The notes under the pieces: model-generated
Database searches by the model: none
Told to the model about the DNA's origin: nothing
Seen by the model: only the letters and a program-made list of their open reading frames with translations
DNA from: Bacteroidota bacterium
GTDB lineage: Bacteria > Bacteroidota > Bacteroidia > Flavobacteriales > Flavobacteriaceae
NCBI GenBank assembly: GCA_018829465.1
Contig: JAHJTN010000006.1
Location: 124,001-188,000, forward strand
Direction: 5' to 3'
DNA: 64,000 nucleotides
Part shown: positions 22,162 to 25,596 of the stretch, piece after piece
How the letters are laid out: each line of letters starts with the position of its first letter
Position numbering within the stretch: position 1 is the stretch's first letter
Position numbers and translations under genes: made by a program

Positions 22162-22380
22162 GGTTAAATAATTTAGACTACTAAAGTATTTGTAAAACTT
22201 TATAAAGCATGTTAATAAAAATGTAATTTATTGACCCACAGCGAACGATATTTTATTCAATCAGCCCAAAATGAAATAAATATTTTGAATTATATATAAA
22301 TTCTATGTATTTAGTATAATTTATAAAAAAAATCAATTTGTTAAATTTGTAACATCCTTTTTTTATTTCAAATTGGTTTC

Positions 22381-22388
22381 TATCTTTG
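22381..22388 (+). promoter_or_regulatory. -7 element (TATCTTTG) of the methionine operon leader
   Basis: Matches TAnnTTTG, 33 bases upstream of the first leader-peptide ATG. The 219 bases between the S9 peptidase start and this point are A/T-rich with nothing else recognisable. Confidence 0.6.
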
Positions 22389-22421
22389 CCCAAGAATTCG
22401 TTTAAAAAAGAGTCCAAAAAA

Positions 22422-22493
22422 ATGAAAAATTTTCAAAATATGATTTGTTGCATGATGTGCCAAGGAAACTTGGAGGTTCTCTCGTGTAGCTAA
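22422..22493 (+). CDS. Met/Cys-rich leader peptide 1 (23 residues)
   Basis: ATG to TAA frame reading MKNFQNMICCMMCQGN and then LEVLSCS. Codons 7-13 (22440-22460) are Met-Ile-Cys-Cys-Met-Met-Cys, a density of sulfur amino acids expected of a sensor leader peptide and not of a functional protein. It lies between the promoter and a terminator hairpin, upstream of methionine genes. Inferred role: ribosome stalling here when Met- or Cys-tRNA is scarce prevents termination. Confidence 0.8.
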   Translation: MKNFQNMICCMMCQGNLEVLSCS

Positions 22494-22547
22494 TTATATT
22501 TACAATTGCCATACATGAAAAAGCCTCCTCACAAGGGAGGCTTTTTT
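22460..22547 (+). promoter_or_regulatory. Attenuator 1: mutually exclusive hairpins
   Basis: Segment 1 CCAAG (22460-22464) pairs with segment 2 CTTGG (22469-22473) around a GAAA loop. Segment 2 also contains GGAGGTT (22472-22478), which can pair with segment 3 AGCCTCC (22522-22528), seven pairs including one G-U. Segment 3 pairs with segment 4 GGAGGC (22536-22541) to form the terminator. Segment 1 starts at the last sensor codon, so a ribosome stalled on the Met/Cys codons masks it and frees segment 2 to form the antiterminator. Pairings were drawn by eye. Confidence 0.72.
22518..22547 (+). terminator. Intrinsic terminator of attenuator 1
   Basis: AAAAAGCCTCC, a 7-base loop, GGAGGCTTTTTT: a six-pair GC-rich stem extended by A-T pairs and a T-run. 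Confidence 0.88.
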
Positions 22548-22603
22548 AATTTTAAAATATTTGAAAAAGGAAAATGATTGTTTAATTTTTAAAAAGTTCA
22601 TCC

Positions 22604-22714
22604 ATGAAAACGCTTGCCCATCTCGTCCTAAAAGCTGCATCACCCTTCATAAATTCATGTATGTGTATGTGCGTTGACGACATGATAGGTTTTGCCTGTT
22701 TGGATGCTAACTAA
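22604..22714 (+). CDS. Met/Cys-rich leader peptide 2 (36 residues)
   Basis: ATG to TAA frame, MKTLAHLVLKAASPFINS then CMCMC at codons 19-23 (22658-22672), then VDDMIGFACLDAN. The alternating Cys-Met run and the position 8 bases before a terminator stem make it a second sensor peptide. A possible 1:2 hairpin pairs TCATGT (22655-22660) with ACATGA (22680-22685). Candidate antiterminator pairings to the terminator's left arm are GTTTTG (22689-22694) with CAAAAC (22729-22734), or TTTGG (22699-22703) with CCAAA (22728-22732). These are weaker than in unit 1. Confidence 0.75.
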   Translation: MKTLAHLVLKAASPFINSCMCMCVDDMIGFACLDAN

Positions 22715-22721
22715 ACTACCC

Positions 22722-22762
22722 GGGCCACCAAAACACTATCGACAATTTGGTGGCCTTTTTTT
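22722..22762 (+). terminator. Intrinsic terminator of attenuator 2
   Basis: Ten-pair stem GGCCACCAAA (22723-22732) / TTTGGTGGCC (22746-22755) with a 13-base loop and a T7 tail, ending 23 bases before the osmC start codon. Confidence 0.92.
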
Positions 22763-22785
22763 AAACAATTTTAAATTTTAAAACC

Positions 22786-23247
22786 ATGAGCTCAAATATT
22801 TTTCAAATCCGTGGACAAAGCGAAGGTCCTGCCCAACTACATGTTAGTGCACGCGGGTTTTCCATCCATGTGGACCAACCCGAATCGTTGGGAGGTAGCA
22901 ACACCGCACCCAATCCGTTGGAATATCTATTGGCCGGATTGGCCGGCTGTGTAAACGTTGTGGCACACCGCGTTGCCGAAGAGTTGAATATCAAAATATA
23001 CGAGTTGTGCATCGATGTAGCCGGCAGCCTAAATCCCGATAAGTTTCTAGGTAAATTTACCCTCGATCGGGCGGGTTTTCAGACCATCCAAGTTCGCATA
23101 CATGCACGCACGGATGCTTCGGATGAAAATCTCAGAAAATGGTTAAACATTATTGAAACGCGAAGCCCGGTGAGAGATGTATTGGGAAAAGGTACACCCA
23201 TAGGGCTATCGCTCCAAAGAAAAGTTAGAGAAGAATATTGTGTTTAG
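22786..23247 (+). CDS. OsmC/Ohr-family protein
   Basis: 153 residues. Family features: EYLLAGLAGCVNVVAHRVAEE, holding one conserved Cys (near residue 63) on the central helix, and a preceding glycine-rich GGSNTAPNP. The second catalytic Cys of classical peroxidatic OsmC, expected around residue 120, is not visible (the region reads IETRSPVRDVLGKG), so peroxidase activity is uncertain. It is the first structural gene of the methionine operon, an association with metX suggesting a sulfur-metabolism role rather than osmotic stress. Confidence 0.88.
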   Translation: MSSNIFQIRGQSEGPAQLHVSARGFSIHVDQPESLGGSNTAPNPLEYLLAGLAGCVNVVAHRVAEELNIKIYELCIDVAGSLNPDKFLGKFTLDRAGFQTIQVRIHARTDASDENLRKWLNIIETRSPVRDVLGKGTPIGLSLQRKVREEYCV

Positions 23248-23343: not shown

Positions 23344-24336
23344 ATGTCTATAAAAACGATACAATTAGAAAAAGTACAGACCGAAAAAGGTCATACGCTA
23401 GCGAACGTTGCACTTACTTACGAAACCTTCGGTCCAGAGCTAGGACAAGCACCTGTGGTTCTAGTGGTGCATGCACTCACCGGAAATTCCAAAGTTTGTG
23501 GTGCCAAGGGTTGGTGGCAAGACGTCATCGGACCCAACAAAGCAATAGACACCAATCACTATACCGTATTTGCTCCCAACATACCCGGAAACGGTTATAC
23601 GGGTAGCGCGTATTTGATTGAGAACTATCGAGAATATTCGGCTCGCGACATCGCTCAAATCATTCATTTGGGACTTCAAAAACTCGGTATCTCTAAAGTT
23701 TATGCAGCCATTGGTGGCTCTATCGGCGGTGGGATTGTTTGGGAGTTAGCCGCTGCCAAACCCCATTTTATCGAGCATTTGATTCCGGTGGCATCAGACT
23801 GGAAAGCATCAGACTGGTTGTTGGCCAACACCTTTATCCAAGACCGTATTCTCAGCCATTCTTCCCACCCCTTGGAAGATGCACGTATGCACGCCATGAC
23901 TTTTTACCGCACAGCCCAATCGTTTAGAAATAAATTCAACCGAACCCTAAACACAGAAGTTGGCATCTTTAACGTGCAAACCTGGCTGGCGCACCACGGC
24001 ACCAAACTGCGCGAGCGCTTTACGCTATCTGCCTACAAAACGCTCAACCACCTGTTGGCAAGCATAGACATCAGTCGCGGACGCGGAGATTTTGCCACGG
24101 CAGTGCGGGAAATCAGTTCCACAATACACATCGTAGCCGTGGATACCGACCTGTTTTTCGTACCCGAAGAAAGCCGAAGAACCTACACTTGCCTCATCAA
24201 ATTGGGCAAAAAAGTGCACTACCATCAAATCCAATCCATACACGGGCACGACGCTTTTTTGATTGAGTACGACCAACTGAGCCGCATACTTGCAGGTATT
24301 TTTGTCAAAAACGAGGTATTGCTCTCAGAAATGTAA
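23344..24336 (+). CDS. metX: Homoserine O-acetyltransferase
   Basis: Transfers acetyl from acetyl-CoA to homoserine, the committed step to methionine. 330 residues, alpha/beta hydrolase fold. ALTYETFG and VVHALTGNSKV are family motifs, the nucleophile elbow is GGSIGGG (Ser near 126; most members have GGSMGG), and the catalytic His is in HGHDAFLIEYDQL. Acetyl versus succinyl donor cannot be settled from sequence alone. No sulfhydrylase (metY/metZ) is adjacent, so sulfur incorporation must be encoded elsewhere. Confidence 0.93.
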   Translation: MSIKTIQLEKVQTEKGHTLANVALTYETFGPELGQAPVVLVVHALTGNSKVCGAKGWWQDVIGPNKAIDTNHYTVFAPNIPGNGYTGSAYLIENYREYSARDIAQIIHLGLQKLGISKVYAAIGGSIGGGIVWELAAAKPHFIEHLIPVASDWKASDWLLANTFIQDRILSHSSHPLEDARMHAMTFYRTAQSFRNKFNRTLNTEVGIFNVQTWLAHHGTKLRERFTLSAYKTLNHLLASIDISRGRGDFATAVREISSTIHIVAVDTDLFFVPEESRRTYTCLIKLGKKVHYHQIQSIHGHDAFLIEYDQLSRILAGIFVKNEVLLSEM

Positions 24337-24507: not shown

Positions 24508-25596
24508 ATGGCCCAACTCAACATCCTCCTTTTCGGCATCGGAAAAATAGGGAGTACATTCGTCAACAAATACATAGAAAGGCAAGAAGAAATTGCCGCG
24601 CAGAAAGGCATCAAACTCCATTTAGGTGCTATTGCCAATTCCAAGTTTGTCTTTTGGGCAGCCTCAGAAAGCCCAAACAAACAGTGGATTGCCGATCTGG
24701 AAAACTATCAAAAACCTTACAAATTAGAAAATGTGGTCCACAAGTTTCAATCGCTTTACGGCGAAAATCTAGTGGCAGTAGATGCAACAGCAGACGAGCA
24801 TTTGGCACAGCACTATCCGTTTTTGATTGAAAGCGGGTTTCACATTGTCTCAGCCAACAAAACCGCAAACGTTCAACCCATAGATTTTCACATCGGCCTG
24901 CGTAACCTACTCAAAGAAAACCAAAAAAAATTTTTCTACGAAACCCACGTAGGTGCCGGACTGCCCGTGCTCGAAACCCTTCGCAGGCTGTATCAATCCG
25001 GCGATGAAGTCACACGCGTCAGGGGAGTGTTTTCGGGTTCTTTGAGCTATATCTTTAACACCTTCTCCGAAGAAAACAAAAGTTTCTCGCAGGTGCTCGA
25101 TGAAGCCGAAAAACTAGGCCTCACCGAACCCGATCCGCGCACAGATCTCAGCGGAATAGACGTGGCCAGAAAACTGCTTATCATTGCCCGAGAACTCGGT
25201 ATTCATAAAGAACTCAATGCCGTAGAAGTGGAGTCACTATTGCCCAAAAAACTCAACGGACATACCACGCTGCATCAGTTTAAAAGCCGTATAAAAGAAC
25301 TCGACAGCCTATACCAATCGCGTAAAAGAGAACTCAAAAAAGACGAAGTGTTTCGGTATGTAGGCGAATGGGATTTAAAAAGTAAAACCCTTAAAGTGCG
25401 TTTGCAAACCTTTCCGAAGGAACACACTTTGGGCTATATCAGTGGCACAGAAAACGTGTTTGAGATATATACCAAATCCTACCAACCAGAACCGCTGGTC
25501 ATCAAGGGCAGTGGCGCCGGACTCGATGTCACCTCAAACGGATTGTTGAGAGACGTGCTCAAGATAGCCGAGTTTGTACCCAGCACGGTTGTCTAA
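24508..25596 (+). CDS. Homoserine dehydrogenase (monofunctional, ThrA C-terminal type)
   Basis: Reduces aspartate semialdehyde to homoserine. 362 residues. N-terminal Rossmann motif [13 protein letters not shown], then [10 protein letters not shown] (catalytic Lys region), [16 protein letters not shown] and [12 protein letters not shown], as in the dehydrogenase half of the bifunctional ThrA/MetL enzymes. No ACT domain is attached. It supplies the substrate of MetX encoded just upstream. Its stop codon overlaps the stop of the convergent fbp gene by 4 bases. Confidence 0.93.

Follow-up and report, generated by a model that had tools for sequence, protein, structure and literature searches.

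The classical amino-acid operon attenuators (trp, his, thr, phe, ilv) have a short ORF with a run of the regulated residue, 1:2, 2:3 and 3:4 pairings and an intrinsic terminator. Methionine biosynthesis is usually credited to SAM riboswitches, T-boxes or repressors. SAM-I (RF00162) senses SAM directly and is off when the product is plentiful, the same logic as we propose for the leader described here. This leader lies in a 64-kb stretch of DNA from a member of the Flavobacteriaceae, the whole of which we call the window. Together with its relatives it shares the ORF run, the three pairings and the intrinsic terminator with the classical attenuators. Unlike in these, Met (with Cys) would be sensed, two complete attenuators stand in series, and segment 2 of the ORF1-type elements falls within the ORF, at a distance of 15 nt from the stop codon in 37 of 52 (range 4-24). 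With SAM-I it shares the genes and the place before metY.

Leader-peptide attenuation itself is not new, with cases in Bacteroidota too, and Salmonella mgtCBR has tandem attenuators. There, two short ORFs in one leader sense ATP and proline, as far as the accessible part of the report goes (PMC3641672); unlike this pair of different signals, both runs in the window carry Met and Cys, each with its own intrinsic terminator. Bacteroid-trp (RF01692) is a leader RNA of Bacteroidota (Weinberg 2010, PMC2864571), described by Rfam as a tryptophan peptide leader RNA. The window scores only 22.3 bits against it (cut-off 49), and other amino acids and genes are involved. For Flavobacterium psychrophilum, a transcriptome study reports strong hints that leader-peptide attenuators precede amino-acid operons, in the same bacterial family and with the same class of mechanism (PMC9723704). 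Its section on 5' cis-regulatory RNAs names no Met or Cys operons, and the attenuators predicted there may overlap with the present element. Small frames in long 5' UTRs of Bacteroides thetaiotaomicron are called reminiscent of leader peptides in the accessible part of that work. In Actinobacteria, leader peptides with Cys codons precede cys operons and thus share a Cys-codon run upstream of sulfur genes; in the accessible part of that study Rho is suggested in place of a conserved terminator, no RNA structures were seen at methionine operons, and neither a Met run nor a tandem switch is described (PMC1262725). Among the matches listed in our literature search, whose scope excluded most subscription journals, there was no paper on methionine leader-peptide attenuators; within the same limits we found no attenuator that senses methionine, is tandem and replaces SAM-I.

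The leader of the osmC-metX operon

The leader upstream of the osmC-like gene is about 400 nt long. Its features and the genes behind it are as follows.

22381-22388, + strand: candidate promoter -7 element, TATCTTTG (from the sequence)
22422-22493, + strand: leader ORF1, 23 codons, MKNFQNMICCMMCQGNLEVLSCS (from the sequence; one of 52 aligned elements)
22440-22460, + strand: sensor run 1, Met-Ile-Cys-Cys-Met-Met-Cys, codons 7-13 (from the sequence; Met/Cys counts in 52 ORF1 peptides)
22436-22501, + strand: 1:2 leader hairpin, an outer stem and the inner CCAAG/CTTGG hairpin 22460-22473, closing over segment 2 (MFE and centroid folds; the corresponding outer and inner stems covary in 52 elements)
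22472-22478, + strand: segment 2, antiterminator 5' strand GGAGGTT (masking 22440-22470 in nascent RNA leads to pairing with 22522-22528; covariation)
22522-22528, + strand: segment 3, common to the antiterminator and terminator 1 (covariation of columns 165 and 166 of the alignment with each of the two partners)
22516-22548, + strand: terminator 1 (3:4), 14-bp stem, 5-nt loop and T-run (MFE fold; 99.1% of cells paired in 52 elements, the helix being part of the model)
22604-22714, + strand: leader ORF2, 36 codons, MKTLAHLVLKAASPFINSCMCMCVDDMIGFACLDAN (ORF list; the second leader frame contains CCMQMCMCM and CCMSMCMCM in the two relatives from the same genus)
22658-22672, + strand: sensor run 2, Cys-Met-Cys-Met-Cys (CMCMC; a pattern search tolerating one mismatch gave this single match, 0.03 expected)
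22684-22697, + strand: candidate antiterminator strand of attenuator 2, GATAGGTTTTGCCT, pairing with parts of 22722-22740 (mainly from other ORF2 elements)
22722-22756, + strand: terminator 2, 11-bp stem, then T-run (fold; 29 nt before the osmC-like start)
22786-23247, + strand: OsmC-like protein gene, the first structural gene (NCBIfam OsmC_like_Se, E 6e-20, 71.6 bits, below the curated cut-off of 95)
23344-24336, + strand: metX, homoserine O-acetyltransferase-like (TIGR01392, E 1.5e-56, 192 bits, below the curated cut-off of 500)
24508-25596, + strand: homoserine dehydrogenase-like gene (C-terminal part of PRK09436, E 4e-107, below the curated cut-off)

The first-pass annotation had drawn one attenuator here. 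Its 23-codon frame was borne out (ATG at 22422; M7 I8 C9 C10 M11 M12 C13), and the sequences of its 1:2 pairing, CCAAG(GAAA)CTTGG at 22460-22473, and of its 2:3 pairing, GGAGGTT at 22472-22478 against AGCCTCC at 22522-22528, are present. The 3:4 terminator exists as well, but it is bigger than had been proposed, with 22516-22529 paired to 22535-22548 in the MFE fold. The mechanism as such was supported and the unit had to be enlarged to a tandem by adding ORF2 and terminator 2. Two features had been overlooked: the long outer 1:2 stem (22436-22501) and the second complete attenuator 3' of terminator 1.

The leader folds were more stable than controls (z -4.19 and -3.02). From the window alone, the 2:3 duplex of ORF1 was not significant (p 0.100 with dinucleotide and 0.065 with mononucleotide shuffling). 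We searched for units in which a frame of 12-60 codons starts with ATG, has five or more Met/Cys within eight codons and is followed within 60 nt by a strong hairpin plus T-run. The 64 kb held two, ORF1 and ORF2, and none on the opposite strand, while no such unit arose in 400 copies of the leader or, with one strand of each scanned, in any of 40 first-order Markov copies of the window. A strict terminator scan of 22200-22800 gave no sites; by our reading both terminators lie outside its rule, terminator 1 pairing part of its T-run and terminator 2 having a 13-nt loop.

We take TATCTTTG at 22381 to be a Bacteroidota-type -7 element (consensus TAnnTTTG). The motif TA..TTTG occurs at most 75 nt upstream in 36 of the 52 elements, with 3.2 expected from mononucleotide shuffling. 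A sigma-70 scan gave six sites, every one on the minus strand.

Conservation and covariation among relatives

Relatives were searched with two covariance models, R1 (alignment A2, 18 rows, omitting L101, L089 and the Cys-type elements) and R2 (alignment A5, 14 rows, omitting the window, G001, G002, G019, L067, L138, L101 and the Cys-type elements). A5 was used instead of the MAFFT alignment A4, which misplaced two Cys-type ORF2 elements. Matches to R1 at E 1e-6 or better from 49 chosen loci make up alignment A6, with 52 matches, 18 of them R1 training rows and two lacking an ATG start (L171, L102:5003). Outside A6 are the duplicates L101, L141, L149, L150, L157 and L163, as well as L173, L176, L177, L182-L186, L188, L189 and others. 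Since R1 held the terminator as its sole structure, A6 was not fitted to the other helices.

The first-pass annotation had asked whether the small frame and the 2:3 pairing are kept in relatives. Both are, with compensatory changes, across the 52 aligned elements including the window. These ORF1-type elements keep the Met/Cys run, the terminator, the antiterminator and the spacing from antiterminator to stop codon. Like ORF1 and ORF2 of the window, each of them holds a short predicted frame with a codon run. Within the same genus, tandems precede metY-osmC-metX in L029 (NCCMMCQ, then CCMSMCMCM) and osmC-metX in L028. In several Flavobacteriaceae metY/metX is accompanied by an OsmC-like gene (identified by Pfam in L180 and by eye in L028, L029, L119 and L127).

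The antiterminator was paired in 88.1% of cells over the 52 elements, compared with 64.9% for the best slid control, which served as the check on helix columns picked by eye on the same sequences. It had 24 double changes against 4.3 when shuffled (0 of 500), and its innermost pair (columns 79-163) is standard in just 29 of 52. The inner hairpin was paired in 85.4% of cells and the outer stem in 76.4%; the terminator had 55 double changes. When pairs changed on both sides were counted, shuffles reached the observed value in 50, 238 and 134 of 500 for the antiterminator, inner hairpin and outer stem, respectively. Columns 77-165 appear as A-U, C-G, G-U and G-C, and columns 165-183 as U-A, G-C, C-G and U-G, so the shared strand changes with both partners. 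This covariation of the shared strand points to mutually exclusive antiterminator and terminator pairings in ORF1-type elements. Native antiterminator duplexes had a mean z of -2.46 against shuffles, with 41 of the 52 lying below -1.65, and in 44 of 52 they outperformed half or more of the duplexes with swapped partners. At the level of sequence, the comparison with relatives settles the predicted 2:3 pairing for ORF1-type elements.

For ORF2-type elements, 26 of 28 had a terminator by rule, and 24 of 25 duplexes, leaving out the window, were below -1.65. The window's row overlapped its terminator and was therefore recomputed. Its best duplex has -13.6 kcal/mol (p 0.158 against mononucleotide shuffles), which makes the ORF2 antiterminator of the window a weak candidate, and R2 misses the window's ORF2 at E 1e-5.

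Among the best 80 of 555 MetX loci from named genomes, 21 have the element near metY/metX (R1 at least 38 bits or R2 at least 44 bits); they come from Flavobacterium, Lutibacter, Kordia, Christiangramia and MAGs titled Flavobacteriaceae, Bacteroidales and Chlorobiota. R1 found no match at E up to 1 in ten leaderless loci. Scanning whole genomes gave matches in 60 of 299 for the family (E 1e-4; 32 of these genomes, with 33 matches between them, reached at least 50 bits), 11 of 395 for the class (E 2e-6) and 36 of 395 for the order (E 1e-6); these samples overlap, and most matches outside the evenly sampled family scan belong to one genus (g140). Convincing matches in other families are f32 (L179, metY), f33 (L183/L189), f13 (L220) and f3 (G020), the last ending 63 bases before metX. 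By the ORF filter some elements are single, not tandem (e.g. L153, L154, L160, L167). In the window's own genome the element is the sole strong R1 match (73.4 bits; next 33.5), and five metY/metB/metC-like loci have no such leader by the ORF filter.

Several matches were set aside. L176, L185, L186 and L204 (49-56 bits) have no sulfur gene and were treated as false; L185 does contain a Met-rich low-complexity frame. Weak R1/R2 matches in the leaderless L062, L088, L094 and L126 (28-33 bits, E 0.004-0.016) were treated as noise, and the other own-genome R1 matches (at most 33.5 bits, many terminator-only) were rejected. L168 and L184 end near a contig edge, the frame in L168 being presumably transposase-like, and the ORF tested in L177 had no Pfam match.

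R1 weakly matches some ORF2 elements over the full length of the model at 31-37 bits (L080:4404-4538, L081:4403-4556, L095:5205-5338), so the tandem may stem from duplication. By eye, L102 has a direct repeat of about 100 nt between its two attenuators (around 2640-2880).

Modelled switching

In the mechanism that we propose, the transcript would start just 5' of ORF1. A ribosome finishing ORF1 would reach the stop codon and cover segment 2, and the 3:4 terminator would form. When charged Met-tRNA (and here Cys-tRNA) is scarce, the ribosome would stall on the run and break the 1:2 hairpin over segment 2. The freed segment 2 would capture the 5' strand of the terminator and RNA polymerase would continue. 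ORF2 would repeat the test, and both terminators would have to be passed before osmC-metX-hom is transcribed. Two attenuators in such a series would act in an AND-like manner with a high dynamic range.

We modelled the nascent RNA up to before the 3' arm of the terminator. The window switched as had been drawn: free RNA formed the 1:2 hairpin, and masking 22440-22470 gave the antiterminator. Over the 52 elements, the antiterminator exceeded 0.5 in 45 when stalled, in 21 when free and in 5 with the ribosome at the stop codon. It rose on stalling in 30, and 7 formed none even when stalled. Shuffling the downstream segment of the ORF1 elements lowered sequestration of the terminator arm from 0.91 to 0.40. 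The 15-nt spacing would place segment 2 under the terminating ribosome, given the footprint size that we assume. Modelled folding and geometry agree that in ORF1-type elements, with the seven exceptions, stalling frees segment 2 and a ribosome at the stop masks it; in ORF2-type elements the effect of the stop alone was seen, and in both models the 'at stop' state blocks segment 2 by construction. At equilibrium the terminator of the window wins even with a stalled-ribosome mask, hence the switch must be co-transcriptional.

The antiterminator of ORF2-type elements had a mean of 0.60 free, 0.60 stalled, 0.08 at the stop and 0.25 shuffled (n=25). Masking the run hardly alters it, and only a ribosome at the stop switches these elements in the model. 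Their untranslated default would, by this model, be read-through. The terminator arm of the window's ORF2 was sequestered to 0.19 free, 0.36 stalled, 0.00 at the stop and 0.11 shuffled.

Comparison of relatives establishes the frames, the runs, the terminators, the ORF1-type antiterminators and the spacing at the level of conserved sequence, and likewise the target genes and the exchange with SAM-I. Translation of the frames, stalling at Met and Cys codons and the change in read-through are what we would expect from them, and we consider it highly probable that the window holds a tandem ribosome-mediated transcription attenuator for sulfur amino acids.

Target genes, residues probably sensed and exchange with SAM-I

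In the family scan, 27 of 30 loci lead to metY, metX or osmC-metX (26 by pattern; L173 to metY by ORF). The searched gene type lies downstream in 9 of 12 new class-scan loci and 20 of 21 order-scan loci, with gene patterns picked after viewing the loci. Here the targets, with Pfam matches, are metY, metX and osmC, a cysK preceded by a cysE-like hexapeptide-transferase gene, PAPS reductases and a nitrite/sulfite reductase. Most targets are thus genes for sulfur amino acids, metY and metX above all, which supports the proposed role, and by gene profiles and downstream gene types the operon makes the amino acid that its leader would sense.

Some target loci differ in kind. Seven of the 29 class and order targets are TonB-dependent receptors from the one genus g140 (L181, L213, L217, L219, L221, L223, L224), with a single Met-run attenuator and the gene about 100 nt after the match (Pfam Plug in L181; the others by similar start). 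Perhaps this is an uptake receptor for methionine or a sulfur compound. Tandem Met/Cys leaders stand before PAPS-reductase-domain genes and nitrite/sulfite reductase (L188:1317-1640, L183/L189), the latter in another family of the class.

Internal Met is found in all 52 ORF1 peptides, at least twice in 48, and Cys in 44; therefore Met-tRNA charging is most likely the common signal, with Cys added in many lineages including the window. The proposal of Met/Cys sensing is thus supported with the amendment that Met is the universal sensor residue and Cys a frequent but optional one. In 51 frames, frame 0 has 342 Met and Cys in 1299 codons and no stops, while the other two frames, of 1248 codons each, have 129 and 57 Met and Cys and are broken by 148 and 86 stops. 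Since Met has a single codon, synonymous changes do not separate its conservation from that of the RNA.

The signal in the window could be Cys alone or Met alone, with the other residue a passenger. In favour of this, eight of the 52 ORF1 peptides have Met without Cys and Cys dominates some runs. However, run 1 has three Met and three Cys, and run 2 three Cys and two Met, interleaved. We therefore hold a single sensed residue to be possible but rather unlikely.

A general sensor of ribosome slowing (antibiotics, stress or low charging of any tRNA), for which the Met/Cys run would not be the specific signal, fits the model insofar as a ribosome masking nt 16-45 of the frame frees segment 2, whatever the cause. 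Such a sensor would hardly explain why codons 6-14 of the 52 ORF1 peptides hold 169 Met and 85 Cys, 254 of 468 residues, nor why the targets are mostly sulfur-pathway genes. Cys-rich runs also precede Cys genes, namely CCSACTC before the cysK-type operon of L067 and the run before the PAPS reductase of L220. We give this explanation very little weight against a Met/Cys-specific attenuator.

Cys/Met runs resemble metal-binding peptides. The small frames might accordingly encode functional Cys/Met-rich peptides (e.g. metal- or thiol-binding) acting in trans, with the RNA structures as incidental terminators, and the tight length of ORF1 (22-25 codons in 49 of 52) would suit this. Yet antiterminator and terminator covary, ORF2 runs vary freely in order and length, and in three of 52 (L067, L178, L187) the RNA segment is conserved while the C-terminal part is read in another frame (PQ instead of SAE), so that there the RNA is kept and not the peptide. 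This makes peptides acting in trans extremely improbable, and we return to attenuation as the function of the leader.

A Cys-type variant lies about 0.6-1 kb before metX in L078, L095, L096, L102, L114, L115 and L129. In most of these loci its ORF2 ends in ICVCVC or similar and its antiterminator strand (e.g. TACTAAAAG) is directly 3' of the stop codon; a SAM-I stands between the variant and metX.

The window has no SAM-I match and no Rfam family at cut-off. The first-pass annotation had regarded SAM riboswitches as the better-known device in Bacteroidota. This genome does have one SAM-I, on another contig before a gene that we take from its start to be metH-like, and at the metY position, 1.2-2.3 kb before metX, the leader and SAM-I replace each other in relatives. 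SAM-I positions were taken for 44 of the 80 MetX loci. None of the 20 loci with a leader has SAM-I at the metY position, compared with 21 of the 24 without; the remaining three have a SAM-I adjoining metX. Among the 20 with a leader, 12 carry a SAM-I immediately upstream of metX, and in the other eight this interval lacks one. Parsimony on a tree built from 48 MetX proteins requires five changes of the leader/SAM-I label, three forced by starred branches, against a shuffled mean of about 16; the tree was made quickly from one gene and its branches are long, transfer is possible, and the direction of exchange is not readable from it.

That the element takes the place of SAM-I could suggest a ligand-binding riboswitch (SAM-like or new) with open frames incidental in its aptamer, but this is barely conceivable since no Rfam family exceeds the cut-off in the window or, with relaxed settings, in the leader, the conserved columns are accounted for by the switch helices and the frame, and a second SAM sensor would be needless in the 12 leader loci with SAM-I just before metX. 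The permissive matches in the leader (best Phe_leader at 32.3 and 29.6 bits, cut-off 55), among 30 matches listed, were read as generic terminator matches.

These results lead us to favour, by a modest degree, a Met/Cys-charging regulon of Flavobacteriales in which serial attenuators form a cooperative gate and have been swapped several times with SAM-I at the same promoter position. Many operons keep both sensors (leader - metY - SAM-I - metX), and Met-tRNA charging and SAM may be read separately on one mRNA. Metabolite sensing and sensing of tRNA charge become directly comparable, because they act at the same position on the same genes and in some loci stand in one gene row. The covariance models offer a means to find and annotate the overlooked small frames. 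If the device works as proposed, the operon would be made only when Met or Cys runs short. Leader peptides, often in tandem, thus seem to let the sulfur regulon gauge its supply of aminoacyl-tRNA, in a position where near relatives use SAM-I.
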